In this document: in pieces, positions 7,205-26,915 of the stretch
Layout: each line of letters starts with the position of its first letter
Position numbering within the stretch: the stretch's first letter is position 1
From: an uncultured Nitrospirota bacterium
GTDB lineage: Bacteria; CG2-30-53-67
NCBI GenBank assembly: GCA_947259355.1
Contig: CAMYMF010000020.1
Location: 3,484 to 45,545, forward strand
DNA: 42,062 nt
Direction: 5' to 3'
Notes under the pieces: generated by a model
Databases searched by the model: none
The model's input: only the letters and a program-made list of their open reading frames with translations
Told to the model about the DNA's origin: nothing
Program-made: the position numbers and the translations under genes

Positions 7205-7992
7205 CACCTTGTACCAGCCCTGTCATTGCAGGACGCAGAGGGTCGTGCGCGGCCCGCGTCGGGATCTGCGTCGTCGTGCTGTTGGGCATGGCGCTGTCCT
7301 GCGAGGCATTGACGATCCCCGATGTGCAGATTCGTGTGGCGGAGGCCACCGGACCGGAGCGGGTTTCGGCAGCGCTGCAGGTCATGGCGCTGCTCACCGT
7401 GCTGACGCTGGCGCCGGCCATTCTGATCTTGACGACGTCCTTTGTGCGCATCGTGGTGGTGCTCTCTTTTCTGCGCCAGGCCATCGGCACCCATCAGGTG
7501 CCTCCCAATCAGGTGCTCATCGGGCTCGCCCTTTTTCTGACGTTTTTTATCATGACCCCCGTGTGGCAACAGGTAAACCAAGGGGCTCTCCAGCCTTATC
7601 TGAAAAAGGAGATCACCCAGGAGACGGCGTATCACAGCGCCCTGCAACCGATCCGGAAATTCCTTTTCGCCCAGACGCGGGAGAAGGACCTCATGCTTTG
7701 TCTGAAAATGTCGGGTGATGGGAAGCCGGCCAACCGCGACGCCGTTGCGACGGTACCCCTGGTGACGGCTTTCGTGCTCAGCGAGCTCAAGACAGCCTTT
7801 CAGATCGGTTTTCTGATCTACATTCCCTTTTTGGTGCTCGACATGGTGGTGGCCAGCATCCTGCTCTCCATGGGGATGATGATGCTGCCCCCCATCATCA
7901 TTTCGCTGCCGTTCAAGCTGATGCTCTTTGTACTGGTGGACGGGTGGTATCTGGTGGTGGGGTCTCTGATTAAGAGTTTTCACACGCTGTAG
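7201..7992 (+). CDS. fliP: Flagellar type III export gate protein FliP
   Basis: A 263-residue membrane protein starting at the ATGA overlap with fliO. A signal-peptide-like N-terminus (about 35 residues) precedes the two FliP signatures: TSFVRIVVVLSFLRQAIGTH with PPNQVLIGLALFLTFFIM, and TREKDLMLCL followed by FVLSELKTAFQIGFLIYIPF, SMGMMMLPPIIISLPFKLML and FVLVDGWYLVV. Four hydrophobic helices are apparent. FliP forms a pentamer that, with FliQ and FliR, builds the helical export pore at the centre of the basal body. All core motifs are intact, in contrast to fliR downstream. There is a 31-base gap to fliQ. Confidence 0.97.
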   Translation: MTPCTSPVIAGRRGSCAARVGICVVVLLGMALSCEALTIPDVQIRVAEATGPERVSAALQVMALLTVLTLAPAILILTTSFVRIVVVLSFLRQAIGTHQVPPNQVLIGLALFLTFFIMTPVWQQVNQGALQPYLKKEITQETAYHSALQPIRKFLFAQTREKDLMLCLKMSGDGKPANRDAVATVPLVTAFVLSELKTAFQIGFLIYIPFLVLDMVVASILLSMGMMMLPPIIISLPFKLMLFVLVDGWYLVVGSLIKSFHTL

Positions 7993-8023
7993 CCTTCTGG
8001 CCGCGGCTTTCAGGAGAATTAAG

Positions 8024-8293
8024 ATGACGGCGGATTTCGTGGTGGGATTCGGGAAGGAGGCGCTGCAGCTGACGCTGATGCTGTCCTTGCCGCTGCTTGT
8101 TACGGGGATGGTCATCGGATTGCTGGTCAGTATCTTTCAGGCGGCGACGCAGATTCAGGAGATGACCCTCATCTTTGTGCCGAAGATCCTGGCCGTCATG
8201 GCGGCGTTGATTTTCTTTTCCCCCTGGTTGCTGGAAATCCTGACGAGCTATACCACCCGGTTGTACATGAACATACCGATCTATCTCCGGTAG
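8024..8293 (+). CDS. fliQ: Flagellar type III export gate protein FliQ
   Basis: An 89-residue protein of two hydrophobic helices, the normal size for FliQ. The family segment GLLVSIFQAATQIQEMTLIF with FVPKILAVMAAL is clear and complete. Four FliQ subunits pack around the FliP5FliR1 core of the export pore. AGGAG lies about 10 bases upstream of ATG 8024. It is followed by a 39-base gap and fliR. Confidence 0.96.
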   Translation: MTADFVVGFGKEALQLTLMLSLPLLVTGMVIGLLVSIFQAATQIQEMTLIFVPKILAVMAALIFFSPWLLEILTSYTTRLYMNIPIYLR

Positions 8294-8332
8294 GACAGAA
8301 TTGTCCGCCGGTCTGTCTGCATGGGAGCGAAG

Positions 8333-9004
8333 ATGAACCCCCTGTCACTGCCGTTTGAGCAATTTGAATGCTTTGTGCTGATTCTGATTCGGGTCTTGGC
8401 CATTGTGCTTGTGCTGCCGGTGGTGTCCGGCCGGCAGGTGCCGATGGCCGTGAAGCTGGGGTTGTCCCTGGTGCTGGCCCTCGTGGTCCATCCCACCGTC
8501 CAAGCCACGGGGGTCGCGGTGCCTCGCAGCGGTCTTGCGCTGCTGTTGGTCGTAAGCGTCATGGACCCCCAGGGCAGCCAGCAGCTTTCCATCATTGCCA
8601 TCTTTGAGCATCTGCTGGCCATGTTCCTCTTCTTTGTCTTCAACGTCCACCATGTGTTGATTCAGGGAGTGGCCGAGAGTTTCCGTCTCATCCCGCTGCT
8701 GCAGGGGCGTTACCCGCTGTCGGTGATGGAACAGCTGCTGCGGAATTCGGCTGCACTCTTTGTGACGGCCATTCAGGTGGGTGCGCCGGTGATGGCGGTG
8801 CTTCTGTTCGCCAATCTCTCCATGGGGCTCATTGCGAAAACGGTGCCCCAGATGAATGTGTTCATTGTTGCTTTTCCGGTGCAGATCGGGGTGGGGCTGC
8901 TGATGCTGGGCCTCAGTCTTCCGGTGACGGCCGGGATGTTTCAGAGGATCTTCGTCACCCTGGGTCGGGACGTGGGGGTCCTCCTTCGGTTGATGGCGGG
9001 ATAA
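8333..9004 (+). CDS. fliR: Flagellar export gate protein FliR with an apparent internal in-frame deletion of about 37 residues
   Basis: A 223-residue protein (ATG 8333 with GGGAGCGAAG upstream; ATG 8321 is the alternative). Family members are about 255-265 residues. The N-terminal third aligns well (VPMAVKLGLSLVLALVV, as in E. coli VPKRVKLGLAMMITFAI), and so does everything from VMDPQGSQQLS onward (HLLAMFLFFVFNVHHVL, AESFRLIPL, MGLIAKTVPQMNVFIVAFPV). Between LALLLVV and SVMDPQ, near base 8550, the conserved block corresponding to E. coli [20 protein letters not shown] and onward through the GLQMGLSFA motif is absent. The frame is open, so this is a clean deletion and not a frameshift. FliR seeds assembly of the FliPQR pore, so function is doubtful unless the sequence is mis-assembled here. 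It is followed 2 bases later by flhB. Confidence 0.9.
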   Translation: MNPLSLPFEQFECFVLILIRVLAIVLVLPVVSGRQVPMAVKLGLSLVLALVVHPTVQATGVAVPRSGLALLLVVSVMDPQGSQQLSIIAIFEHLLAMFLFFVFNVHHVLIQGVAESFRLIPLLQGRYPLSVMEQLLRNSAALFVTAIQVGAPVMAVLLFANLSMGLIAKTVPQMNVFIVAFPVQIGVGLLMLGLSLPVTAGMFQRIFVTLGRDVGVLLRLMAG

Positions 9005-9006
9005 TC

Positions 9007-10074
9007 ATGGCGGGTCCGTCCGATCAGGAAAGAACCGAGCGCGCAACACCAAAAAAGCGGGAAGATGCCCGTCGGCGGGGGGAGGTGGCCAAGAGCCGCG
9101 AGGTGGTGTCGACCACGGTCTACCTCTTTGTCCTGGTTGTGCTCTACCTTTCGGGCTCCTACCTTCTGGAGCGGATCCTGGTTATGTTCCGGGGGTATCT
9201 ATCGCAGTCAACGGAGGTGACGGTGTCGCTGGCCAATCTCAATCTGCTCAGCCTTCAGGCTGTCAGCCACTTTCTGCTCATCCTGGCGCCGGTGATGGCC
9301 GTGGGCGTGGTGGCGGCCGTTGCGGGAAATGTCATGCAGTTCGGGTTTCTGATGACCGGCGAGACGCTCGTGCCCGACGTGGGAAAATTGAACCCTCTCA
9401 AAGGGCTGGGACGGCTTGTATCGAAGCACACGGTCATGGAGGCGGCCAAGTCGGTGGCCAAGATCGTCATTGTTGCCTCTCTGGCCTACTCGGTCATCCG
9501 TTATGAATTCCTCCATCGGCTGCCGACACTGGGGGCCATGGACGTGGCGGGGATTTTCCTCTACGTGACGCAGGTCTCCTTCACGATTCTCATGCGGGTG
9601 CTCTGGTTTCTCATTATCCTGTCCTTCATCGACTATCTCTTTCAGCGCTGGCAGTACGAAGAAAAGCTGAAGATGACGAAGCAGGAGGTGAAAGATGAGG
9701 TCAAACAGCGTGAAGGCGATCCCATGGTCAAGGCCCGTGTGCGGAGCATTCAGCGGGAGATGGCTCGGCGCCGTATGCTGGCCGAGGTCCCGGGCGCGGA
9801 CGTGGTCGTGACCAACCCCACCCATTTGGCGGTGGCGCTGAAATACGATCCGGACAAAGGCCCGGCGCCGCGGGTGGTCGCCAAAGGGGCGCGTTTCATC
9901 GCGGAGAAGATACGCCACCTGGCGAAAGAGCACGGCGTGCCGCTCGTGGAGGACAAGCCGCTGGCCCAGGCCCTTTATCAAGGCGTCCGCCTCGGCGGAT
10001 TCGTGCCGGAGAATCTCTATCGGGCGGTGGCCGAGATTCTTGCCTATGTGTACAGCTTGAAACGACGGCGCTGA
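9007..10074 (+). CDS. flhB: Flagellar export switch protein FlhB
   Basis: A 355-residue protein. The N-terminus (DQERTERATPKKREDARRRG EV) is the highly conserved FlhB start. Four transmembrane helices follow, then a cytoplasmic domain containing the autocleavage motif NPTH at residues 270-273 within VVVTNPTHLAVALKYD. It ends with ARFIAEKIRHLAKEHGVPLV and EDKPLAQALY. Cleavage between N and P allows the switch from rod/hook to filament substrates. A lysine/arginine-rich linker (about 215-250) joins membrane and cytoplasmic parts. The length is typical and all key residues are present. ATG 9007 follows the fliR stop by two bases. Confidence 0.97.
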   Translation: MAGPSDQERTERATPKKREDARRRGEVAKSREVVSTTVYLFVLVVLYLSGSYLLERILVMFRGYLSQSTEVTVSLANLNLLSLQAVSHFLLILAPVMAVGVVAAVAGNVMQFGFLMTGETLVPDVGKLNPLKGLGRLVSKHTVMEAAKSVAKIVIVASLAYSVIRYEFLHRLPTLGAMDVAGIFLYVTQVSFTILMRVLWFLIILSFIDYLFQRWQYEEKLKMTKQEVKDEVKQREGDPMVKARVRSIQREMARRRMLAEVPGADVVVTNPTHLAVALKYDPDKGPAPRVVAKGARFIAEKIRHLAKEHGVPLVEDKPLAQALYQGVRLGGFVPENLYRAVAEILAYVYSLKRRR

Positions 10075-14401: not shown

Positions 14402-15154
14402 ATGCAGGAAGCCCAGAAGGCATACAAGAAGGCACCCCAGGACTTTGATCCCGCCAAACGGGATGAGATGATTGAGGAACTGGCGCCGCTGATCAAGTTT
14501 ATCGCCCACCGTCTTTCGCTGCGCCTGCCGTCCCACGTGGAAGTGGACGACCTCATCAGTGCAGGCGCACTCGGGCTGATGGACGCCATCGAAAAGTTCG
14601 ACCCCACGCGGGGCATCTTGTTCAAGACCTACGCGGAGTTTCGAATCAAGGGGGCCATGCTCGATGATCTGCGCGCCCAGGATTGGGTCCCCCGATCGAT
14701 CCGCCAGAAAGCGGCCGTCCTGGAGCGGGCGTACGAAGAGATCGAACAGCGGGAGGGCAGACCGGCCACCGACGAAGAGGTGGCGGAGGCCCTCGACATG
14801 GCCATGGAAGTCTTCTATGACCTGCTCAACAGTGCGCGGGGACTCTCCCTCATCAGCATTGACGGGGCGGAGGATGAAATGACCCTGAACAAGCGGGTTT
14901 TGGAGTCCCTCACCACGCCCTCCGAGGACAATCCCTTCCATCAGCTCCGGCGCAAAGAGCTCAAAGAGGTGCTGGCCCGTGTCATCGATCAGCTGCCGGC
15001 GAAGGAAAAGACGGTCGTCTCCCTCTATTATTATGACGAGCTGACGATGAAGGAGATCGGCAACGTGTTGAACATCACCGAGTCGAGGGTTTCTCAGATT
15101 CACACCCAGGTGATGCTGCGCCTTCGGGGGAAACTCAAGAAGATGTATGGCTGA
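14402..15154 (+). CDS. fliA: Flagellar sigma factor FliA (sigma-28)
   Basis: A 250-residue group 3 sigma factor. Region 2 is seen in HRLSLRLPSHVEVDDLISAG followed by ALGLMDAIEKFDPTRGILFK and YAEFRIKGAMLDDLRAQDWV. Region 3 starts at PRSIRQKAA. Region 4 is KTVVSLYYYDELTMKEIGNV with LNITESRVSQIHTQ. This is the FliA/WhiG pattern. ATG 14402 has GAGGTGG just upstream. As the last gene of the motor/export operon it would be made after sigma-54 activation and direct late genes. A sigma-28-type promoter lies only 72 bases after its stop, in front of the chemotaxis operon. An anti-sigma factor (FlgM) is not in this window. Confidence 0.97.
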   Translation: MQEAQKAYKKAPQDFDPAKRDEMIEELAPLIKFIAHRLSLRLPSHVEVDDLISAGALGLMDAIEKFDPTRGILFKTYAEFRIKGAMLDDLRAQDWVPRSIRQKAAVLERAYEEIEQREGRPATDEEVAEALDMAMEVFYDLLNSARGLSLISIDGAEDEMTLNKRVLESLTTPSEDNPFHQLRRKELKEVLARVIDQLPAKEKTVVSLYYYDELTMKEIGNVLNITESRVSQIHTQVMLRLRGKLKKMYG

Positions 15155-15225: not shown

Positions 15226-15252
15226 TCAAGTCATTCTGTGGGGGGCCGATAG
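15226..15252 (+). promoter_or_regulatory. Sigma-28 (FliA) promoter upstream of the chemotaxis operon
   Basis: TCAAGTCA at 15226-15233, 11 bases, then GCCGATAG at 15245-15252. The sigma-28 consensus is TAAAGTTT, 11 bases, GCCGATAA; the -10 is 7 of 8 and the spacing exact. The predicted start is near 15260. A small hairpin (CCGGGG/CCCCGG, 15274-15291) lies in the leader just before the ATG at 15292, which argues for translation from 15337 instead. Confidence 0.75.
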
Positions 15253-15336
15253 AAGCTCCAAGAGGAGAGCCTCCCGGGGGGGAAACCCCGGATGTCGGCT
15301 CTTTTGAGTCCCGCAACCTCAAGGACAGATGACCCC

Positions 15337-17262
15337 ATGTTTTCTTCGAACCAGGATCCTTCCGAGGTCATGGCGGCGTTGACGGCCGAGGACCCTCAGG
15401 CGGTGCGCGCTGCGGCCCAGTGGCTGGGGGCAGCCGGCGACGCTGAGGCTCTGCCGGGACTCATCTACGCTCTGGGCAACAAGCACCGCGGCTGTCAAGA
15501 AGCGGTGAAGGATGCGTTGGTACAGATCGGGGGAGACAGAACGGTCGCCAACATCCTCCCCCTGCTGGCTGACCGAAATCCTCAACGCAGCGCCGCCGCC
15601 GCGGAGATCTTGGAGCGCATCGGGCGTTGTGCCATCGCACCGGTCATCGCTCTGCTGCAACATGAGGATCCACGGGTGCGGGGTGCTGCAGCCACCCTGC
15701 TCGGTAAACTGGGCGCGCGGGAGGCCATACCCCATCTTATGGCCCTTCGCACCGATGAGAACATCAACGTGCGCTCCACCATCTTCCGCGTGCTCGGAGA
15801 GCTGGGCGACGCTGCGGTTTGCGACGGCATCCGAGCGCATGTGAGAGATCCTGAAGCGTGGGTGCGCTTTGCCGTGATGCATACGCTTGCAGAGTTGCAG
15901 GACCATCAGGCGATACCGTTATTCCTGGAGGACCTGCGGTCTTCCGATGACCTGAGTGCCTGGGCCGCCGTGGAGGCACTGGGCCGACTCGGCGTGCCTG
16001 AGGTGGTTCCGCCTCTGTTGAAGATGCTGGCACCGGCACCGGCTTCGTTGCGGGATCACATCGTCTGCAATATCGTCCGCATCGCGGAAGCCCAGGATTT
16101 CAATCTCTACCTGGCTTATGGTCTCCGCCGGCATGAGGGCGCTTTTCTCAGCGCCCTGTCGAACCCAAAATCAAAAATCAAGGAGGCCGCCGTCCTTGGA
16201 TTGGGGCGGTTCGGGGGACATAGGGCGGTGGCACCCATGCTTGCGTGCCTGGAGGCCGTGCCATTCGGGTGCGACGCCCGTCTCGAGCCGGTCGTGGAAG
16301 AGGCCCTGTGTCGTATCGGTGAAACGGAGCCGCTGCTGGCGTATCTGCAGGCTGTGAGCACACCGGTGCCGAGGAACAAGGAACGGACGATCCAAGTTTG
16401 TGGACGGGTTCTCGGACGTCTGCAGGAGCCCAAAGCCATTGATGTGCTGGTGGCGCTGCTGGCATCGGACTCGGTAGACGTTCGGCGCACCCTGGTGAAC
16501 ACCCTGGGTGAGTTGGGAGACCGGCGCACCTGTGATGCCTTGATGGGTAGACTGCGGGACGGCACCGGACACGTGCGCGGTGAAGCGGCCCGGGCCCTGG
16601 GCCGTATTGGGGATCCCTGCGCAGCGCTGCCGCTCTTCGAAGCGCTGCTGCGCGAGAGGTACGCGGACGTGAAGCAGGCCTTGATACGGGCATTGGTGAG
16701 CCTCGGCGACGCGCGCATCAAGGAGCGTTGCCGCGCCCTGCTGTTTCACCCGGCCACGGAGACGAGGCAGCTGGCCATTCAATGCTTCGGTGCGATGGCG
16801 GACTGGAAGGACGGCCGTCTGCTGTTCGAGAACTTGCAGGATGAACACCACGGCATTCGGCGGCAGGTGGTGGAAATACTCGGACGCCTGGATGACCCCA
16901 ATGCTTTGGAGCCGTTGATCTATGCGCTGACCGACGAACATGAAGCGGTCCGCATGGCCGCCGTCGAAGCGTTGGCCCACAAGCCTTCGGAGCAGGCGGT
17001 GCGTGGACTGATCTCATCCCTTTATGATCCAAACAAGCGGGTGGCGTACAAGGCCGCCGAAGCTCTGGGTTCTCTGGGCGATGCGTCCTGTGTGCAGCCC
17101 ATGCTGAACCTTTTGCGGTGTACCGAAGACGTTCCCATGAAAATTGCACTGGTCCGGTTCCTTCAGCAGGTGCCGGACGCCCGCGTCAAGCATGTGCTGG
17201 AAGAGATTCGGCGGGACCCCAATCCCGACTTGCAGAAACTCTTCTGCCCACCACGGGGATGA
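15337..17262 (+). CDS. HEAT-repeat protein at the head of the chemotaxis operon, function unknown
   Basis: A 641-residue soluble protein made almost entirely of HEAT/PBS-lyase-type helical repeats of about 31 residues, from residue 12 to the end. Examples are AAQWLGAAGDAEALPGLIYA, ALGRLGVPEVVPPLLKML, TLGELGDRRTCDALMGRL, ALGRIGDPCAALPLFEAL and ALGSLGDASCVQPMLNLL. No catalytic motif, signal peptide or membrane helix is visible. ATG 15337 has AAGGA 11 bases upstream; ATG 15292 is possible but abuts a hairpin. It is the first gene after the sigma-28 promoter, and its stop overlaps a potential cheR start (ATGA at 17259), so it is probably made with the chemotaxis proteins. A scaffold for receptor arrays or for CheR is a reasonable guess; similarity to phycobilisome lyases is structural only. 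Confidence 0.8.
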   Translation: MFSSNQDPSEVMAALTAEDPQAVRAAAQWLGAAGDAEALPGLIYALGNKHRGCQEAVKDALVQIGGDRTVANILPLLADRNPQRSAAAAEILERIGRCAIAPVIALLQHEDPRVRGAAATLLGKLGAREAIPHLMALRTDENINVRSTIFRVLGELGDAAVCDGIRAHVRDPEAWVRFAVMHTLAELQDHQAIPLFLEDLRSSDDLSAWAAVEALGRLGVPEVVPPLLKMLAPAPASLRDHIVCNIVRIAEAQDFNLYLAYGLRRHEGAFLSALSNPKSKIKEAAVLGLGRFGGHRAVAPMLACLEAVPFGCDARLEPVVEEALCRIGETEPLLAYLQAVSTPVPRNKERTIQVCGRVLGRLQEPKAIDVLVALLASDSVDVRRTLVNTLGELGDRRTCDALMGRLRDGTGHVRGEAARALGRIGDPCAALPLFEALLRERYADVKQALIRALVSLGDARIKERCRALLFHPATETRQLAIQCFGAMADWKDGRLLFENLQDEHHGIRRQVVEILGRLDDPNALEPLIYALTDEHEAVRMAAVEALAHKPSEQAVRGLISSLYDPNKRVAYKAAEALGSLGDASCVQPMLNLLRCTEDVPMKIALVRFLQQVPDARVKHVLEEIRRDPNPDLQKLFCPPRG

Positions 17263-17309: not shown

Positions 17310-18179
17310 ATGGTGCCCTTGCTGTCTCAGGAGCAGTGCCACACGCGTGTGGCCATTGATGACCGCTTCTTCGACCTGCTGCGCAAGATGATCTTGGAGC
17401 TTTCGGGCATCAGCATTCCGGACAACAAGCGGTACCTGCTGGAGAATCGACTCGCCCATCGACTCCGAGCGAGCTGCTGTGCGAGTTTCGAAGAATACTA
17501 CTACTTGCTTCGTTATGGGACGGGCCAGGAGCAGGAGCGGACTCGCATGATCGAGAGCATCACAACCAATGAAACCTACTTCTTCCGGGAACCGGCCCAC
17601 CTGCAAGCCCTGCAGCAAGCAATCCTCCCCGCGCTCGTCCAGGCGCGCCGCGCCGAAGGGCAGACGACCATTGGCATCTGGAGTGCAGCCTGCTCCACGG
17701 GGGAAGAACCTTACACGCTGGCCATGCTGCTGCGGGGGGTGGGCGCGCAACTGTCGGGCCTGGAGATTCAGATTCTCGCGAGCGATCTCAATGAATCAGT
17801 GATCCGATCGGCCCGGCGGGGGATCTACGGTGAGAATTCCCTGCGCCATCTGCCTGCGAGCCTGCGAGGGGACTGTTTCGTCCCGGTCGGCGGCGGCATG
17901 CGGCTCCGGGACGAGGTGAAGTCTGCCGTACGATTCGCCAACCTCAACCTGTTGGACCGGGAACGGCTGATGCTGCTGCAGGGAATGGACGTCATCTTCT
18001 GCAAAAACGTCCTGATCTATTTCGACCTGGCCGTCCGCAAGGCGGTGGTGTCCACCCTGTATGACGTGCTGGCACCAGGGGGTATTCTGATGATCGGACA
18101 ATCCGAGAGTCTCTACGACGTTTCTCGGTCCTTTCTCCCCGTCCGTGTGAACGGTGGCGTCGTGTACAAAAAGGAATAG
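17310..18179 (+). CDS. cheR: Chemotaxis protein methyltransferase CheR
   Basis: A 289-residue S-adenosylmethionine-dependent enzyme that methylates receptor glutamates. The N-terminal helical domain (FFDLLRKMILELSGISIPDN KRY) leads into the Rossmann domain: TTNETYFFREPAHLQAL, the SAM-binding segment IWSAACSTGEEPYTLAML, ILASDLNESVIRSARRGIY, then MDVIFCKNVLIYFD and GGILMIGQSESLYDVS. All are CheR hallmarks; Lys replaces the usual Arg in FCKNVLIYF. The start is uncertain: ATG 17310 directly follows GGAGG with no spacing, ATG 17259 overlaps the upstream stop and adds 17 basic residues, and TTG 17319 has ideal spacing. No pentapeptide-binding need is evident, because the local receptor lacks a C-terminal NWETF-like tail. 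Confidence 0.94.
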   Translation: MVPLLSQEQCHTRVAIDDRFFDLLRKMILELSGISIPDNKRYLLENRLAHRLRASCCASFEEYYYLLRYGTGQEQERTRMIESITTNETYFFREPAHLQALQQAILPALVQARRAEGQTTIGIWSAACSTGEEPYTLAMLLRGVGAQLSGLEIQILASDLNESVIRSARRGIYGENSLRHLPASLRGDCFVPVGGGMRLRDEVKSAVRFANLNLLDRERLMLLQGMDVIFCKNVLIYFDLAVRKAVVSTLYDVLAPGGILMIGQSESLYDVSRSFLPVRVNGGVVYKKE

Positions 18180-18224: not shown

Positions 18225-18635
18225 ATGTTGAAGAAGATTCTCATCGTCGATGACGATAGTATCACCCGGAAGTATATCGGTTTCATGCTCCGGGCAGAGG
18301 GATATGAAATCCTCACAGCCCGAGATGGACTGGAAGCCCTGGAGACCATTGGCCGAGGGGGTGTGGACCTGGTGCTGACCGACCTCAACATGCCCCACAT
18401 GGACGGGGCCGAACTGATCCGGCATTTGCGCAACAACGCAGACACGGCCCGCCTCCCCATCCTCATGCTGACCACCGAGGGAGATGAAGAGAGCCGCCAA
18501 CTGGGGGTTTCGGCCGGGGCGAATGAATATCTTATTAAACCGATCGCCAAGGACACTCTGGCGGCAAAGGTTCGGGATTGGGTGGAGATGGGGGGGGAGG
18601 ATGTGCCGGCGCCGGGAGGTGAAGAGGAATGCTGA
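18225..18635 (+). CDS. Single-domain response regulator (CheY-like)
   Basis: A 136-residue receiver domain: acidic pocket DDD at residues 9-11, phosphoacceptor D53 in [12 protein letters not shown], Thr83 and Lys105 (YLIKP). It ends in an acidic tail ([16 protein letters not shown]) not seen in the next gene. It is less like classical CheY than its neighbour and closer to general PilG/CheY-type receivers, so it may act as a phosphate sink or signal to another target. AAGGGA lies about 8 bases upstream of ATG 18225. The last bases overlap the start of the second receiver gene, so the two are co-translated. Confidence 0.9.
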
Positions 18636-19009
18636 ACACCAATTTGAAAGTGCTCGTGGTTGATGACTTTCCAACCATGCGCAGAATCATCAAGAACTTG
18701 CTGAAACAGCTGGGCTTTCAGCAGATCACAGAGGCCGAAGATGGCGCGCATGCGCTCTCTTTGATCCGGGAGAAGCCCGTCGATTTTGTGGTGACCGACT
18801 GGAACATGCCCCGACTCACAGGCATCGAACTGCTCAAGACGCTGCGGGCAGATCCGAAATACAAGAGCCTGCCGGTTCTCATGATCACTGCCGAAGCAGA
18901 AAAAGACTGCATCATTCAGGCCATCAAGGCCGGCGTCAACAACTACATTGTGAAACCCTTCACGGCGGAGACGCTCAAGGAAAAACTGGAGAAAATCTTT
19001 GTTGACTGA
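18629..19009 (+). CDS. cheY: Chemotaxis response regulator CheY
   Basis: A 126-residue receiver closely resembling enterobacterial Che[21 protein letters not shown], phosphoacceptor D57 in [37 protein letters not shown] and [16 protein letters not shown]. The FPTMRRI and DWNMP segments are the ones that recognise FliM and CheA in well-studied CheY, so this copy is the likely motor signal. It overlaps the preceding receiver gene by seven bases (ATGCTGA), with GAAGAGG upstream. CheA lies 57 bases downstream. No CheZ or CheC phosphatase is encoded in the window. Confidence 0.95.
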
Positions 19010-19066
19010 ACAAGGCTTCGGGTGCGCGAGACACCTGCCACACGGGCCCCACCGGAGGAGAAGCTG

Positions 19067-20947
19067 ATGCCGGATGAACGCATTCCGGACGATATGCAGG
19101 AAATCATCGAAGATTTCATTGTCGAATCTCAGGAAAGTCTTGGGACGCTGGAGGCGGTCTTTGTAGACCTCGAGAAGGATCCGGGGAACCTGGAGCTGAT
19201 CAATGCCGTCTTTCGACCCGTCCACTCCATGAAAGGGGCGGCCGATTTCCTGGGGTTCCGGGAGATTGTAACCGTTGCGCACAAGAGTGAGAGCCTTCTC
19301 AATCTGCTTCGAAACGAAAAACTGGTCCTAACCCCGGATATCCTGGACGTCATACTGGCAGCGGTCGATCTGATCAAGGCTCTCATTCAAAAGATCGACT
19401 CCGAGGAGGCGCAGCAGGTAGAGATCGAACCCACCGTGAATCGGCTTTCGGCCCTGCTCCAGAGCGGCCAATCATCGGCGACGCCGGAAGCGCCCGAGGT
19501 AACCGCGGTTTCTCCGAAGGCATCGGAATCTGCGCAGGAGGACCGGCAAAGAGCCGAGGGCCCGGCGGCAGAAGAGCAGACGGTGGTTGCTGTGCCTTCG
19601 GAGAAACCCCAGGGCGGCGACGCTACACCCACCGACACCGCAGAAAGCAGGCCAGCCTCTGCCACTGCAGAGCCCTACGCGGCCAACGAGGCGGTCGGGG
19701 CGGAGGGGGCGGGGTCCGGCACATTTGCCGAGCCTCCGGAGATGCCGGAAACCGTTCGGGAGCAGACGATTCGGGTGGATGTGGAGCGTCTCGATTCGGT
19801 GATGAATCTGGTGGGAGAGCTCGTGCTGGCACGCAACCGGCTCTTTCGGATCAATCATGGGATCGAATCGCGTTACGGAAGCGACGAGCTGGTCGAAGAG
19901 CTGCTGGACACGACGGTGCACCTTAGCGTGCTCACCACCGATCTGCAGCAGGCCGTCCTCAAAACCCGGATGCAACCCATGCGCAAGGTTTTCAGCAAAC
20001 TGCCTCGGGTCGTTCGGGATACCGCCCGAAAAAAGAAAAAAAAGGCGGCGCTGGAGATCATTGGTGAAGAGACGGAAGTGGACAAATCGATCATCGAAGA
20101 AATCGGCAGTCCCTTGGTGCACCTGCTCCGCAATGCTGTGGATCACGGGATTGAAATCCCCGATTTCCGCGTGATCTTCGGCAAACCCGAGACGGGACGG
20201 GTCTCCGTGAGCGCTGCTTATGAAGGCGACCACATCAATATTCAAATCGAGGACGACGGCAAGGGGATGGACCCCGAACAGCTCCGGGAGGCGGTGGTTC
20301 AAAAGGGATTACTCGAGGCTGCAGAGGCCGGGCGGCTGTCGGAAAAGGAGTGCCTGAACCTCATTTTCCATCCCGGTTTCAGCACAGCCGAAAAAGTTAC
20401 CAGCACCTCCGGTCGGGGCGTGGGGATGGATGTGGTGAAGTCGAACATCGCCAAACTCAACGGGATTGTTGCGGTGGAGAGCCAATGCGATCGGGGGACT
20501 CAGGTCAGCATCCGGCTCCCGCTGACCGTCGCCATTATTCAGGCCTTGATGGTGGGGGTGGGACAGGAAACCTTTGCCCTGCCCCTGAGCGCCGTCATTG
20601 AAACCCTGAAACTCACGGCGCGCGATATACAAACCATCGATGAACGGGAGGTGATTACGCTGCGCGACGAGATCGTGCCGTTGGTACATCTGGCCCGTGA
20701 GTTGGATGTCCCCGGCGCGCACGAAGGTCAAGGGGGACCCGGTTATGCAGTCATCATCGGGCTGGCCGAAAAGAAACTGGGGCTGGTGGTGTCGCACCTG
20801 CACGGCCAGGAGGAAATCGTCATCAAGCCTCTGGGCGAGTATCTCAAGGGAGCCAGTGATTTTGCCGGGGCCACCCTCACTGGTGACGGTAAGGTCATCA
20901 TGATCCTCGACGTGGGGGCTCTCATGCGGCAGAAATCGGTTGCGTAG
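19067..20947 (+). CDS. cheA: Chemotaxis histidine kinase CheA
   Basis: A 626-residue kinase. ATG 19067 follows GGAGGAG by 6 bases. P1 (about 1-115) has the phosphorylated histidine H53 in FRPVHSMKGAADFLGF. A long Ala/Glu/Pro-rich linker (about 130-225) replaces a recognisable P2. P3 dimerization helices (about 230-318) include SVMNLVGELVLARNRLF. P4 has the N-box LVHLLRNAVDHGIE, G1 EDDGKGMD and G2 TSGRGVGMDVVKSNI. The P5 CheW-like domain occupies the last 130 or so residues. CheA couples receptors to CheY and CheB. At the P3/P4 border five consecutive lysines are encoded by A6-G-A8 (20029-20043), containing two in-frame A-AAA-AAG slippery sequences; see findings. A hairpin lies between the stop and cheB. 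Confidence 0.96.
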   Translation: MPDERIPDDMQEIIEDFIVESQESLGTLEAVFVDLEKDPGNLELINAVFRPVHSMKGAADFLGFREIVTVAHKSESLLNLLRNEKLVLTPDILDVILAAVDLIKALIQKIDSEEAQQVEIEPTVNRLSALLQSGQSSATPEAPEVTAVSPKASESAQEDRQRAEGPAAEEQTVVAVPSEKPQGGDATPTDTAESRPASATAEPYAANEAVGAEGAGSGTFAEPPEMPETVREQTIRVDVERLDSVMNLVGELVLARNRLFRINHGIESRYGSDELVEELLDTTVHLSVLTTDLQQAVLKTRMQPMRKVFSKLPRVVRDTARKKKKKAALEIIGEETEVDKSIIEEIGSPLVHLLRNAVDHGIEIPDFRVIFGKPETGRVSVSAAYEGDHINIQIEDDGKGMDPEQLREAVVQKGLLEAAEAGRLSEKECLNLIFHPGFSTAEKVTSTSGRGVGMDVVKSNIAKLNGIVAVESQCDRGTQVSIRLPLTVAIIQALMVGVGQETFALPLSAVIETLKLTARDIQTIDEREVITLRDEIVPLVHLARELDVPGAHEGQGGPGYAVIIGLAEKKLGLVVSHLHGQEEIVIKPLGEYLKGASDFAGATLTGDGKVIMILDVGALMRQKSVA

Positions 20948-20966
20948 CGGTCGGGCTCACCGACCG
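20948..20966 (+). other. Perfect 7-bp hairpin between cheA and cheB
   Basis: CGGTCGG (20948-20954), loop gctca, CCGACCG (20960-20966) begins at the cheA stop codon. No T-run follows. It may tune the cheA/cheB ratio or be an RNA-processing site; nothing more can be said from sequence. Confidence 0.35.
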
Positions 20967-20987
20967 TATGAGATAGAGGGAGAAGGC

Positions 20988-22079
20988 ATGCGACACATAC
21001 CGGTGGGGAATCCGATCCGTGTCCTGATTGTTGATGATTCGGTCTTCATGCGCATGGCTTTGCGCCGTATGTTGGAATCCGATCCGGGCGTGGAGGTGGT
21101 GGGCGTGGCGAAGGACGGCGTTGAGGCGCTGGAGAAAGTCGAGGCGCTGCAGCCGGACCTGGTGACCCTCGATATCGAAATGCCCCGGATGGACGGACTG
21201 ACCGCCCTGGAGAAGATCATGTCCCGTTTCAGCTTGCCGGTGATCATGATCAGCTCCCACACCCAGGAGGGCTCACGCGCGACACTAAAGGCCCTCGATC
21301 TGGGTGCGGTCGATTTCATCCCCAAATCGGTCGACGGTTCCCTCGTCGGCGCCGACGCCATAGAGGGGGCCCTGCTGCAAAAAGTGAAGGCCTGTGCTGC
21401 GTCTCAGGTACGGCCCCGGTGGGAAGAACCCCCGCGTCGCACTCCCGAGAGAAAGCCTGTCGCGGGTTCCTCGGAGGCAGGCCCCCTCGACGTGGTGGCC
21501 ATCGGCGCCTCCACGGGAGGCCCCAAGGCTCTCAAGGAGGTGATTTCCCGGCTTCCCGGCGACTTTCCGGCGGCGGTGCTGATTGTGCAGCATATGCCCC
21601 CAGGATTCACCCGTACGTTTGCAGAGCGTCTCAACGATATTAGCGAGGTTGCGGTGAAAGAGGCCGAGGAGGGAGATGCCATTGTTCCGGGTAGGGTTCT
21701 GGTCGCGCCGGGGGGGCAGCATCTTCTGGCCCGCGTCAGAGCGTTCGGTCACCCCGTGGTTCGCCTGACGGAGCATCCCCGGAATCTGGCCTATCGTCCT
21801 TCGGTGGACGTGATGCTTTGTGCCGTGGCCGAAGTGTTCGGTCCACGGGCCCTGGCCGTCATGATGACGGGTATGGGCTACGACGGCCGGGAGGGGATGC
21901 GGGCTATCAAGAAGTTCGGTGGCAGAACACTGGCGCAGAATCGCGAAAGCTGCGTGGTGTTTGGAATGCCGGGGGCCGCGGCAGCGATTGGGGTGGTGGA
22001 TCAGATGGTGCCGTTGTGGCGTCTATCCGACGTGGTGGTCGGTGTGGTGCGCTCGGCGGAGCCGGCCGGATCGAGTTGA
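20988..22079 (+). CDS. cheB: Chemotaxis receptor methylesterase/deamidase CheB
   Basis: A 363-residue two-domain response regulator. ATG 20988 follows GGGAGAAGG; an upstream in-frame start at 20940 would overlap cheA. The receiver domain (1-125) has D16-D17 and phosphoacceptor D62 in LVTLDIEMPRMDG. A short linker leads to the catalytic domain with the triad S175 (IGASTGGPK), H202 (VQHMPPGFT) and D299 (GMGYDGREG), matching the Ser-His-Asp triad of enterobacterial CheB. It removes methyl groups added by CheR and deamidates glutamines, giving adaptation. Both cheB and cheR in one operon with a single receptor form a complete adaptation set. The receptor gene starts 13 bases downstream. Confidence 0.96.
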   Translation: MRHIPVGNPIRVLIVDDSVFMRMALRRMLESDPGVEVVGVAKDGVEALEKVEALQPDLVTLDIEMPRMDGLTALEKIMSRFSLPVIMISSHTQEGSRATLKALDLGAVDFIPKSVDGSLVGADAIEGALLQKVKACAASQVRPRWEEPPRRTPERKPVAGSSEAGPLDVVAIGASTGGPKALKEVISRLPGDFPAAVLIVQHMPPGFTRTFAERLNDISEVAVKEAEEGDAIVPGRVLVAPGGQHLLARVRAFGHPVVRLTEHPRNLAYRPSVDVMLCAVAEVFGPRALAVMMTGMGYDGREGMRAIKKFGGRTLAQNRESCVVFGMPGAAAAIGVVDQMVPLWRLSDVVVGVVRSAEPAGSS

Positions 22080-22092
22080 ACGGAGGTGCTGA

Positions 22093-23718
22093 ATGAAAGC
22101 CGGGATGCGACTGACGATGAAACACAAAGTGGCTGTCCTCGCCGTGGTACTCTCCATGGGTATCCTGTTGATGGGAGGGGGAGCTCTGTTTTTTCTCCAT
22201 GAGCTGCAGTCCGTGCTGGTTCAGGACCGGCACCGTGACAAAACGGTCGCCCTGAAGCATCGCATGCAGTTTGCCGCGCTTCAGGTTCAGCAGTTTTTGA
22301 CCGACGCTGCCCTGACGGAGTCGCGAGAGGCTCTGGCTGACGGAGAGCAGTGGTTCGACCGATTCCTGCGGATGACCGGTGAGATCGAAGAACTGCTGGG
22401 TAACACGCAGGCTCCCAAGGTGGCAGGACTCCAGGAGATAATTCGGAACCACCATCAACGTGGTCAAGAGATGGTGCGGGACTACTGGGCCGGCGACCGA
22501 GCGGCGGGCCTCGCGAAGATGCTTGACTTCGACGAGGAAGCCCTTCGGATTACGGCACAAATCGAGGAGATCTATGCGCCCTACGAAACGGTGAATCTGG
22601 TTGAAATGGAAACGCTTCGTAGCCGCGCGGAACGCTTCGACCTGATGATTATCGGATGCGCTCTAATCTTTCTCCTCTTCGCCGGCGCGGCGGTGACCTA
22701 TCTTTCCAGGGCCCTCGTGAAACCCCTGGGGCCGCTGGCGCGCATGATCCGGTTGTTGGCTTCCGGGGATTTTGCCACGGAGGTGCCGGTGGTCAACCGG
22801 GGAGATGAGTTCCAGGATCTCCACGAGGATCTGATCCGGATCCAGCGTAATTTGGGAAATATGTTCCAGCGCGTCGTCGAAACCGGGGACCACCTTGCCT
22901 CTGCGTCGGAGCAGCTCAAAGCCACCTCCACCCAGATCGTGGAAGGCATGCGGCGAACGTGTCGCTCCGAAGAAGAGATGGCCGTATCGGTCGGGCAGTT
23001 GAGCACAAGCGTCAAAGAGGTCGCCCGATATGCTCAGAATTCATTCATGGCGGCGGGAGAGATGGTGGCCATCAGTTCGGACGGTCGCGTCCGGAGCGAC
23101 GATGTGATTCGGTGTATGACGCAGATGGCCGGCATTATTAAGGAAGCCGCCAACCAAAGCGGTAAGCTCTCCCGCGTCAGCCAGGAGATCGGAGGCTTCA
23201 CCAAAGTGATTGATGACATCATGGAGCAGACCCAGCTGCTTGCTTTCAATGCCGCCATCGAGGCGGCCCACGCCGGCGAGCAGGGGCGCGGTTTTGCCGT
23301 CGTGGCCGAGGAGGTGCGCAAGCTCTCCGAGAAGACCTCCAGGGCGACCCAGGGTATCGCAGAGATTATCGAGCAGATTCAGGGGGAGAGTGGGGAGATG
23401 GCGGCGACGCTCTCGGAAGGGATGGCGGTCATGGAAGGGGCAACACGCAAGACCCGTCAGGCCCACGAAGCACTGGGGGGTGTCATCGACAGTGCCTCCC
23501 AGGTCAAAAAGATGATCGAACAGATTGCCACGTCGTCCGAAGCGGAGAGCAAAACGTCAATACATATAACAGAGAGTGCCCGGATGATCGCAAACCTGAG
23601 CCGTGAGGCCGTCCAGGCCGGTGAGGAGTCCGTGAACGCTTGTGGCGATCTCAGCCGTCTGGCCATAGAGCTTCAGAATCGGATGTCTCTGTTCAATGTG
23701 TCGTCGTCGGCACAGTGA
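22093..23718 (+). CDS. Methyl-accepting chemotaxis protein (transmembrane receptor)
   Basis: A 541-residue receptor. GGAGGTG precedes ATG 22093. The first membrane helix (about 11-33) is followed by a helical periplasmic sensor of about 150 residues that looks like a four-helix bundle. The second helix (about 186-208), a HAMP domain (about 209-262, with [20 protein letters not shown]) and the cytoplasmic signalling rod follow. The tip reads [20 protein letters not shown] then [18 protein letters not shown]: a clear MCP hairpin, but with Gln in place of the nearly invariant Asn of QTNLLALNAA. There is no CheR/CheB-binding pentapeptide at the C-terminus. The ligand cannot be predicted. It is the only receptor here and probably the partner of the local CheA/CheW. 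Confidence 0.94.
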
Positions 23719-23737
23719 CAGGAGGAGGTGGACGTAC

Positions 23738-24586
23738 ATGCCAGCAACCATGCAAGAACTGATTACAAAGACCTGCGATCTGCCGGCTGTACCCGATGTG
23801 GCCAACCGAGTCATGCAGCTTCTGGCGGACCCCGACAGCACGCCGGAGATGGTCTGCAGAACCATTGCAGCGGATCAATCGTTGACGGCGCGCATTCTGA
23901 AAATCGCCAACTCGCCCTTCTACGGGTGTCTGCGGACCATCAACAACCTGAAATCCGCCATTGTAATCATGGGCTACAGTGCTGTGCGGAGTCTGGTTAT
24001 TGCGGTCTCCACCAGGGAGGTCTACAAGAACTTCGGGCTCACGGAACGGATGCTGTGGGAACACTCGGTGGGGGTGGGGATCGGATCCCACCTGGTGGGC
24101 AAAGAAGTGCGGTTGTCCAAACTGGACGACGTCTTTGTCTGCGGCCTGATGCATGATCTCGGCAAAGTGGTCATGAACAACACGGATCCCCATCGGTATC
24201 GCAAGGTCATGGAAGATATGTACAACGAGGGAGGGGAATTCCTCGGTGTGGAACAGGAGGTTTTCGGCTTTACCCATCCGGAGGTGGGTGCCCTGGTGGT
24301 GCGCAAGTGGAATCTGCCCGATGAGCTCGAGCAGGCGGTCCGGTTTCATCATGACATCGAGCTCCTCTCCGGGCAGGACCGCTACCTCCACCTGCTGGCT
24401 TCCATTCTGAGCCTCTCGGATACGATTGCCCAGCGGTTGGGGATCGGAAGCCGCGGCGTCGACAACGGCATCGCCGTCCATGACAGCCAGGCGGCAAAAA
24501 ACCTCGGTCTGTCCGGTGAGCGCCTCGACGCGCTGATGGCGTCGGTCGAGAAGGCCTACAATGAGGAAAGAAGCAATTTCGGGTAG
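23738..24586 (+). CDS. HDOD-domain signalling protein
   Basis: A 282-residue protein whose whole length is an HDOD domain: LPAVPDVANRVMQLLADPDS, IAADQSLTARILKIANSPFY, NNLKSAIVIMGYSAVRSLVI, then HEAT-free helices with VFVCGLMHDLGKVVMNN and FTHPEVGALVVRKWNLPD. An HD pair is retained (H139-D140), which many HDOD proteins have lost, so hydrolase activity cannot be excluded. HDOD proteins act in c-di-GMP, chemotaxis and stress pathways, often without known biochemistry. ATG 23738 has the excellent site GGAGGAGGTG 7 bases upstream. It follows the receptor by 19 bases and precedes the MerR gene by 27, so it belongs to the sensory operon. Confidence 0.92.
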   Translation: MPATMQELITKTCDLPAVPDVANRVMQLLADPDSTPEMVCRTIAADQSLTARILKIANSPFYGCLRTINNLKSAIVIMGYSAVRSLVIAVSTREVYKNFGLTERMLWEHSVGVGIGSHLVGKEVRLSKLDDVFVCGLMHDLGKVVMNNTDPHRYRKVMEDMYNEGGEFLGVEQEVFGFTHPEVGALVVRKWNLPDELEQAVRFHHDIELLSGQDRYLHLLASILSLSDTIAQRLGIGSRGVDNGIAVHDSQAAKNLGLSGERLDALMASVEKAYNEERSNFG

Positions 24587-25048: not shown

Positions 25049-25144
25049 GGCTGCCGCAGTGAATGGCTGCGCAAGACAACGCTGTGACGGTCATTCCGAT
25101 TGTCCGGGCTGGGACGGCATTTGAAGGAGGTGGGAGAAGAGACC

Positions 25145-25624
25145 ATGTCCATGCATGTCATCGGCAACGAGGAAGAAAAGGGCGCCCTGATTCAAGCGGT
25201 TTCCTTTTACGTGGGCGACGAGGAATACGCACTGGGGATCCACGGCGTCCAGGAGGTCATTCGTCTGCAGGACATGACCCGGGTGCCCAAAACGCCGCCC
25301 TCCCTAAGCGGTGTCATCAACCTTCGCGGGCAGATTATTCCCGTCATCGACGTTCGGATCCGTCTGGGCATGGATCCCCGCAGTGACGAGGGGGACCGTA
25401 GAATCGTCGTGGTCAGCCATGCAGGGAAAACGGTCGGGCTGATTGTGGATCGACTGTCGGAGGTCCTTTGGGTCTCGGAATCGTCTCTGCGCCCGCCACC
25501 CGATACGAGCCATTCAAGGGGGCACAACGAAATAATCGAACAGGTGGCTAAGTTGGGCCAGCGACTGTTGATTTTTCTGAAGCTGGAGGCACTGCTCGGC
25601 TCCGAGGTACACGGGACCCACTAG
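25145..25624 (+). CDS. cheW: Chemotaxis adaptor protein CheW
   Basis: A 159-residue single CheW domain. ATG 25145 has GGAGAAGAG upstream (and GAAGGAGGTGG further up); the in-frame extension to 25100 is not supported. Signatures are AVSFYVGDEEYALGIHGVQE with VIRLQDMTRVPKTPPSLSGV, INLRGQIIPVIDVRIRLGM, and VGLIVDRLSEVLWVSESSL. CheW bridges receptors and the P5 domain of CheA in the array. A 96-base gap separates it from the MerR gene and holds no recognised promoter. Placement between a MerR regulator and an HD-GYP gene is unusual but strand and spacing still fit the operon. Confidence 0.95.
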   Translation: MSMHVIGNEEEKGALIQAVSFYVGDEEYALGIHGVQEVIRLQDMTRVPKTPPSLSGVINLRGQIIPVIDVRIRLGMDPRSDEGDRRIVVVSHAGKTVGLIVDRLSEVLWVSESSLRPPPDTSHSRGHNEIIEQVAKLGQRLLIFLKLEALLGSEVHGTH

Positions 25625-25694
25625 AGAGGCCCGACGGGATTGGCGGCAGCGTGCGGTGGCGGCGCGGGGCCGTCTCAGAAAGGTGGCGCAAGAC

Positions 25695-26915
25695 GTGCTG
25701 AAAAAAATTAGTATTGATGAGTTGACCATCGGGATGTATGTGGAGAAGGTCGATCGTTCGTGGCTGGAGATTCCCTATTTCCGCAAACAGATCCAGTCTC
25801 CCGATCAGATAGAAACCTTGCGCAAATTCGATGTGCAGGTGCTCTACATTGACACGGCCCGGGGCACCTCCCAGGACAAAGCACCTGACTCGGCCGGGCC
25901 GGTTGAGGGCTCCGCGAAGCCCGTTGAGGCCGGGACGGCCCCCGGGGAGGTGGCTAAACCCCATGCCCAGGAGAGTGTTTTCGATGCCGAGAAGGTGCAG
26001 GTGTGTCGCGCATTTCAGAAGCAGGCTGTGAACTGCGTCAAGGAGGCCTTCGCCGCATTGGCTTCGGGTGAGCCGCCGAATATGGAAGAGGCGGAGGGCG
26101 TCGTGGAGGGACTCATCGATCACATGACACGGGATACGGCGATTCTGACAACCCTGGCCAAGCTGAAGGCTTACGATGACTATACGTTCATGCATTCCGT
26201 CAATGTGACCATCTTCTCCCTCATCATCGGCAAGGCACTTCAGTATACTCGAAGCGATCTAACCAAACTGGGGATCGGAGCCATGTTTCACGATATCGGC
26301 AAAACCCAGATCCCCAACGACATCCTGAACCAGCCCCGGCCTCTGGAACCTCACGAAATGGTACAGGTACAGAAGCACCCCCTCCACAGTCTGGCCCTCC
26401 TGAGGGACGTGACAGGCATGAGTGTGGAGTCACTCCGGGTTTCACTAGAGCACCATGAGCGGCTCTCAGGACAGGGGTACCCCCGGGGACTCAAGGGGAC
26501 CAATATCTCCGAGTTCGGTATGATCGCCAGCATCGCCGATGTGTACGACGCCATGACCACCGACCGGGTCTATCAGAAGAAGGCCGAGCCCCATGCCGCA
26601 CTGGCCCGGATTTATGCCATGGCCAAGGAAAACTTCAACGTCGGTTTTGTGGAACGTTTCATCGCGCGGCTCGGGTTTTACCCTATCGGTTCGGTGGTGA
26701 TCCTGACATCCGGAGAAGTGGGGGTTGTCACCGCGACACACCTGGATCATCTGCTCTGTCCTGTGGTCATGGTGCTGCTCGACCGCACGGGCCAACAGCT
26801 CGGTTCCCCGGACTTTGTGGATCTCCTCTACGATCGGGAAAAGCGGCGCGTACAATCGGTGACAGGGGCCGCCAAATACGGCCTGTCGGTACAGGACCTC
26901 TTGCAGATAGCCTGA
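25695..26915 (+). CDS. HD-GYP domain c-di-GMP phosphodiesterase
   Basis: A 406-residue protein. GTG 25695 is chosen because AAAGGTGG lies about 9 bases upstream and it gives the family N-terminus MLKKISIDELTIGMYVEKVD; the GTG at 25656 is too far up. The N-terminal region (1-135, DUF3391-like) is followed by a linker and the HD-GYP domain: HSVNVTIFSLIIGKAL, the HD pair H199-D200 in MFHDIGKTQIPNDIL, HHERLSGQGYPRGLKG with G261-Y262-P263, and ADVYDAMTTDRVYQK. All metal ligands and the GYP motif are present, so hydrolysis of cyclic di-GMP is likely. Low c-di-GMP favours swimming, which fits its place in a sigma-28 sensory operon. Confidence 0.94.
   Translation: MLKKISIDELTIGMYVEKVDRSWLEIPYFRKQIQSPDQIETLRKFDVQVLYIDTARGTSQDKAPDSAGPVEGSAKPVEAGTAPGEVAKPHAQESVFDAEKVQVCRAFQKQAVNCVKEAFAALASGEPPNMEEAEGVVEGLIDHMTRDTAILTTLAKLKAYDDYTFMHSVNVTIFSLIIGKALQYTRSDLTKLGIGAMFHDIGKTQIPNDILNQPRPLEPHEMVQVQKHPLHSLALLRDVTGMSVESLRVSLEHHERLSGQGYPRGLKGTNISEFGMIASIADVYDAMTTDRVYQKKAEPHAALARIYAMAKENFNVGFVERFIARLGFYPIGSVVILTSGEVGVVTATHLDHLLCPVVMVLLDRTGQQLGSPDFVDLLYDREKRRVQSVTGAAKYGLSVQDLLQIA

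Follow-up and report, generated by a model that had tools for sequence, protein, structure and literature searches.

Adaptation feedback runs through CheB-P in Escherichia coli and through CheC, CheD and CheY in Bacillus subtilis. To our knowledge, these two standard chemotaxis systems are devoid of any HEAT-repeat component such as the one described here. The original prediction extended this statement to standard systems in general; it stands for E. coli and B. subtilis, but HEAT proteins (Cpc7, OE2401F) are on record in other chemosensory systems.

Cpc7 belongs to the Che7 system of Myxococcus xanthus. It is described in a review (PMC11514114, after Darnell et al. 2014) as a HEAT protein that is a partner of CheY7 and controls development. 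The Che7 genes are given as cheB7 (6959), cheR7 (6960), [6961] and mcp7 (6962) (PMC3945109). As these locus tags leave exactly one gene between cheR7 and mcp7, cpc7 is probably MXAN_6961 and would lie beside cheR7, matching the HEAT-cheR arrangement reported below. OE2401F (HEAT_PBS) is encoded in the che region of the archaeon Halobacterium salinarum; motor switching requires it, CheD and a CheF protein are its binding partners, and a place between CheY and the archaellum has been proposed for it (PMC2666748). CheR is also found fused to TPR domains, as in FrzF and WspC; the TPR part is small (1-4 repeats) and mostly C-terminal, and the fusions belong mostly to non-motility pathways (PMC3447774). 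Less than 10% of MCPs carry the pentapeptide tether (PMC2577667), and the access of CheR to receptors without it is a question that concerns most bacteria.

The HEAT gene and its operon

The window is the whole stretch of DNA analysed here (42,062 nucleotides of an uncultured Nitrospirota bacterium; assembly GCA_947259355.1, contig CAMYMF010000020.1, positions 3,484 to 45,545, forward strand). The source genome, about 90% complete at 3.1 Mb in 94 contigs, is a member of a small lineage. The gene order is fliA-HEAT-cheR-cheY-cheY-cheA-cheB-mcp-HDOD-merR-cheW. The HEAT gene is preceded by flhF-flhG-fliA, and fliA ends at 15154. The features, in window coordinates, are the following.

15226..15252, +, sigma-28-like promoter TCAAGTCA-N11-GCCGATAG between fliA and the HEAT gene; 12/16 consensus matches
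15337..17262, +, gene of the HEAT-repeat protein, first in the che operon; product of 641 aa with about 20 repeats (ORF translation, Pfam, AlphaFold)
15577..15897, +, repeats 3-6 (aa 81-187), the best-conserved region of the family, judged from 73 members
17310..18179, +, CheR methyltransferase; Pfam CheR E 1.5e-53; start placed by homology; short beta-subdomain loop, pentapeptide-independent type
18225..18635, +, single-domain response regulator 1 (CheYa), directly 3′ of cheR; same place in most relatives with a flagellar-type cluster
18629..19009, +, single-domain response regulator 2 (CheYb), canonical CheY-like
19022..20947, +, CheA
20940..22079, +, CheB
22093..23718, +, MCP (HAMP and signalling domain), devoid of a C-terminal pentapeptide
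23696..24586, +, HDOD protein, final gene of the conserved order
25100..25624, +, CheW; Pfam CheW E 2e-38

The reading frame at 15337-17262 (+) is stop-free and encodes 641 aa; an alternative in-frame ATG at 15292 would give a product of 656 aa. Pfam HEAT_2 matches the 641-aa protein in 7 stretches (E 9e-80; 263 bits, cut-off 27.7). The AlphaFold model (pLDDT 93.3, pTM 0.79) has 41 helices in about 20 repeats, which form a single continuous solenoid from end to end. The size and the number of helical repeats given by the original prediction (641 residues, about 20) are borne out by the ORF, by HEAT_2 and by this model. The protein is assigned to the HEAT-repeat class by a profile match above cut-off and by a predicted alpha-solenoid fold. 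This fold resembles those of the scaffolds PP2A PR65, karyopherin beta-2 and CAND1. The dN/dS ratios against the sister genome are about 0.18 for the HEAT gene, 0.20 for cheR and 0.22 for cheA; the HEAT gene is under purifying selection, as are its neighbours.

Sigma-28-like sites as good as that at 15226-15252, with the same spacing, number only 3 in the window, both strands included. A similar site is found in the sister genome (L038), with a spacer of N12 (one additional base). The position of the HEAT gene between a sigma-28-like promoter and cheR, as first proposed, is confirmed. An overlap of the HEAT stop with the start of cheR had also been suggested; it is rejected for the window, since homology to the sister gene places the cheR start at ATG 17310, 47 nt after the HEAT stop, and an overlap would need the distant GTG 17118. 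Real junctions of 0 nt or of 4-nt overlap are found in relatives. The only domains found by Pfam in the window CheR are CheR_N, CheR and a generic methyltransferase; no TPR domain was detected. A DUF3391 + HD-GYP protein is encoded at 25656-26915, directly 3′ of cheW, as it is in L038 and L039; it is possibly a cyclic di-GMP phosphodiesterase tied to the che operon.

Close relatives and second cluster

A protein is counted here in the CheR-linked HEAT family if it matches the family profile and if cheR is adjacent, at most two genes away, or fused. The window protein and its orthologs in L038, L039 and L040 all belong to it. The order fliA-HEAT-cheR-cheY-cheY is common to these relatives; cheA-cheB-mcp-HDOD follows in L038 and L039, and the contig of L040 stops after cheY. 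The HEAT gene of L039 (genome G005; 7977-9908) has one in-frame TAA after about 538 codons, the remainder being in frame; this corresponds either to a disrupted gene or to an assembly error. More distant genomes (L041, L042) have the order cheB-HEAT-cheR-...-cheA.

The genome of the window harbours a second chemosensory cluster (contig C5), in which HEAT lies directly before cheR, stop followed by ATG (0 nt). The two HEAT proteins share 29% identity, and the HEAT-cheR arrangement of the second cluster is repeated in four relatives. This cluster (L043:2715-14420) encodes a dCache_3 MCP, an MCP whose C-terminal domain is of the phosphonate-binding periplasmic type, a response regulator with a zinc ribbon, HEAT, CheR, CheB, a GAF protein and CheY. 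No cheA is annotated within the 20 kb read around it. Neither CheC nor CheD was found in this genome (about 90% complete).

Distribution of the HEAT-cheR linkage

Genome contigs were scanned from the HEAT side with a second HEAT group as seed (group B alignment A3), CheR being left unused. The scan gave 45 loci. The next gene is cheR in 36 of them; the other nine have cheR within two genes (4), a contig edge (4) or no cheR (1). The linkage, next or within two genes, thus holds in 40/41 informative loci. The single exception is a Planctomycetota locus, in which there is no che gene. One or two genes, mostly cheY, separate HEAT from cheR in three Zixibacteria-type loci, and one small ORF does so in L083. 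The linkage spans at least 8 bacterial phyla; the lineages include Nitrospirota, Desulfuromonadales/Geobacteraceae, Zixibacteria, Aerophobetes, Latescibacterota, Bacteroidetes/Rhodothermaceae, Kapabacteria and Ignavibacteria, among others. The fliA-HEAT-cheR-cheY-cheY operon of the window recurs in Thermodesulfovibrio and other Nitrospirota, with HEAT/cheR overlaps of 4 nt. In a sample of 148 Nitrospirota genomes, cheR is the next gene in all of the best new HEAT loci read (29/29). A linkage confined to this genome would have been fatal to the original prediction; the linkage clearly extends beyond it.

HEAT lies between two cheR genes (cheR-HEAT-cheR) in L254 and L257. Four Aerophobetes loci (L081:5500, L084:5533, L085:3351, L086:5126) have, besides the HEAT-linked CheR, a second, divergent CheR beside a ParA/FlhG-like ATPase.

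The converse survey was run with a CheR profile on 290 genomes across the domain. The flanks of 89 CheR domains were read, and their HEAT neighbours were counted by profile. A HEAT family gene accompanies 50 of the 60 top-scoring CheRs (45 adjacent, 3 near, 2 fused) and 2 of the next 29; HEAT-linked CheRs were the source of this profile, so the ranking reflects similarity to that clade, adjacency itself being unused. In the CheR tree (n=129), the HEAT label needs 11 changes, where shuffled labels need 37 on average; the figure of 11 may be slightly too high because L120/L135 were labelled 'none' although HEAT lies upstream. The 682-aa CheR of L120/L135 was rejected as a fusion: its N-terminal portion comes from reading the HEAT gene in another frame and has no Pfam match. 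L120/L135 were counted as HEAT upstream.

HEAT and CheR are fused in a single ORF in three genomes: L133 (also L126; 649 aa, the sequence including a short masked run of X), L136 (671 aa) and L134 (912 aa). Both HEAT_2 and CheR are above the Pfam cut-offs in all three. The two clearest fusions retain the N-terminal HEAT half with the family motif. No fusion of HEAT to CheY was seen among the loci read. Pairwise distances of HEAT, compared over the 32 common loci, correlate most with those of CheR (0.72), then with CheB (0.63), CheA (0.45) and CheYa (0.34); these values are rough, since the HEAT alignment is repeat-rich and repeats align poorly.

SpoIIE phosphatase, STAS, HEAT and CheR are encoded in one run in L157:2-3860 and L158:689-4500; the 4.5 kb read showed no further che gene. 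In these two loci, CheR stands outside any recognisable chemosensory cluster. A weak N-terminal STAS match was found in the HEAT protein of L157. In the same broad CheR clade, an HDOD gene occupies the place of HEAT 5′ of cheR in L141, L143, L145, L154, L155 and L167. The order is HEAT-HDOD-cheR in L121 and L124; HDOD likewise ends the window operon (23696-24586).

Conserved HEAT surface and CheR loop

The consensus of repeats 3-6 is NAGxRN, DxDPDVRKFAxDILG, NxNVR and W/F. These repeats are retained in the short members of the family (360 aa) and in the two clearest fusions. Their conserved residues are on helices expected, from general HEAT architecture, to line the concave face. The window protein keeps D111, R115, N144, V145, G154 and W175 and departs from the consensus at K116 (G), F117 (A) and D120 (T). 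With these three residues lost, the window protein may have a diverged binding surface.

The beta-subdomain loop is short in 81/83 HEAT-linked CheRs, and of Salmonella length or longer in 15/36 CheRs devoid of HEAT. The loop of the window CheR is short and lacks RGxG. A C-terminal pentapeptide is absent from all 8 MCPs that exceed the family cut-off in this genome (about 90% complete). A pentapeptide-tethered CheR system, defined by an RGxG loop and an MCP pentapeptide, is thus absent from this genome.

Proposed function and alternatives

The original prediction offered three roles: array scaffold, CheR partner, or link between receptors and the motor or pole. The comparative evidence (adjacency to cheR, three fusions, the top correlation being with CheR, SpoIIE-STAS-HEAT-CheR operons) favours the second and not the other two. 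The HEAT protein is probably a dedicated, non-enzymatic partner of CheR, which places or regulates CheR at receptors devoid of a pentapeptide tether. The structure class, the conserved pairing, the fusions, the co-divergence and the absence of a pentapeptide system in this genome are established; physical binding to CheR, a tether or regulator role and an input from CheY are inferred.

The solenoid would bind CheR (in cis when fused), and its conserved N-terminal concave surface would bring CheR to the receptor substrates or regulate it there. HEAT could in this way replace the pentapeptide tether of the E. coli type of CheR. A tether role is not demanded by the data, since the CheR of B. subtilis functions without pentapeptide and without HEAT. 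The neighbouring CheY-type regulators might steer the action of HEAT on CheR; two points make such an input plausible, namely the reported binding of CheY7 by Cpc7 and the single gene between cheR7 and mcp7, MXAN_6961, which is probably cpc7. A bolder version is put forward tentatively and appears doubtful: the solenoid would be a third adaptation element that binds both CheR and a phosphorylated CheY-type regulator, the output of the pathway feeding back directly on receptor methylation, in a large and ancient class of systems.

It is rather unlikely that HEAT instead receives the output of a CheY-type regulator, or links CheY-P to the motor as an adaptor, and lies beside cheR for operon reasons. 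The binding of CheY7 by Cpc7, as described in a review (PMC11514114), is the sole direct interaction on record for a bacterial chemosensory HEAT protein. The requirement of OE2401F for motor switching and its binding of CheD and a CheF protein (PMC2666748) point the same way, as do CheYa directly 3′ of cheR in most flagellar-type clusters and the HEAT-cheY-cheR order of Zixibacterial loci. However, the fusions join HEAT to CheR and never, among the loci read, to CheY; the correlation between HEAT and CheYa distances is low (0.22-0.34); HEAT-CheR pairs exist with no che neighbour in the stretch read; and a motor adaptor fits poorly with loci remote from flagellar genes. A structural role, scaffolding the receptor array or anchoring it at the pole, with an incidental co-transcription with cheR, would account for the scaffold-type fold and for a HEAT gene heading the operon after fliA. 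This is quite improbable, as the linkage is to CheR and not to CheA, CheW or MCP, and the correlation with CheA is only 0.40-0.45.

A chance or neutral neighbour preserved solely through operon inheritance is conceivable in Nitrospirota and in the lineage of the window, where the entire operon is inherited as a block. It is nonetheless hardly credible, and is already refuted as a general explanation: the pair persists while its cheB, cheY, cheA, STAS or parA neighbours vary, it occurs in several CheR clades, fusions exist, and dN/dS is low. Lastly, no curated NCBIfam model covers the window protein, and the closest similarities are to NblB, CpcE and CpcF. These could point to a phycobilin lyase or an NblB-type enzyme with catalytic HEAT repeats, unrelated to chemotaxis. 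The probability of this is negligible: every score is far below its curated cut-off (NblB, 136.8 against 300 bits), which reflects the shared repeat only and places the protein outside these families, and nearly all loci have a chemosensory context.

Comparison with known systems

Chemotaxis is a model signalling pathway thought to be complete in its parts; the HEAT protein suggests that a dedicated partner of CheR has been overlooked. If so, it would fill a gap in the parts list of a whole class of systems (Nitrospirota, Desulfuromonadales, Zixibacteria, Aerophobetes, Bacteroidota-related and others), and would make the tether-free access of CheR to receptors directly testable. No description of the HEAT-CheR pairing was found in the literature searched (a limited paper collection), and the protein is apparently a widespread CheR-linked component undescribed so far. 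Feedback through HEAT, if real, would be an adaptation circuit unlike those of E. coli (CheB-P) and B. subtilis (CheC/CheD/CheY).

The HEAT-cheR-cheB clusters of Geobacteraceae and Desulfuromonadales loci are probably the beta-group che clusters of Geobacter, a group reported also from M. xanthus; the text of that paper makes no mention of a HEAT protein (PMC2577667). The nearest known relations are Cpc7, OE2401F and the CheR-TPR proteins. HEAT-CheR and CheR-TPR both couple CheR to a helical-repeat, protein-binding solenoid. They differ in the repeat (HEAT, up to about 20 copies) and in its place (upstream gene or N-terminal fusion). OE2401F, like the window protein, is a HEAT protein encoded among che genes, and it binds the receptor-modifying CheD. 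In contrast, it is archaeal, adjoins DUF439 (cheF) in the studied genomes and is reported to be without homologs in the che regions of other archaea (PMC2666748); no DUF439 is found among the annotated neighbours of the window gene, which are fliA and cheR. Since OE2401F binds both CheD and a CheF protein, it offers a parallel for a HEAT protein that joins receptor modification and the CheY branch. Cpc7 is likewise a HEAT component of a bacterial chemosensory system. It differs in being described as a partner of CheY7 in development; no tie to CheR or methylation was found in the literature searched. A CheR partner would provide a link between this reported Cpc7-CheY7 interaction and receptor methylation.
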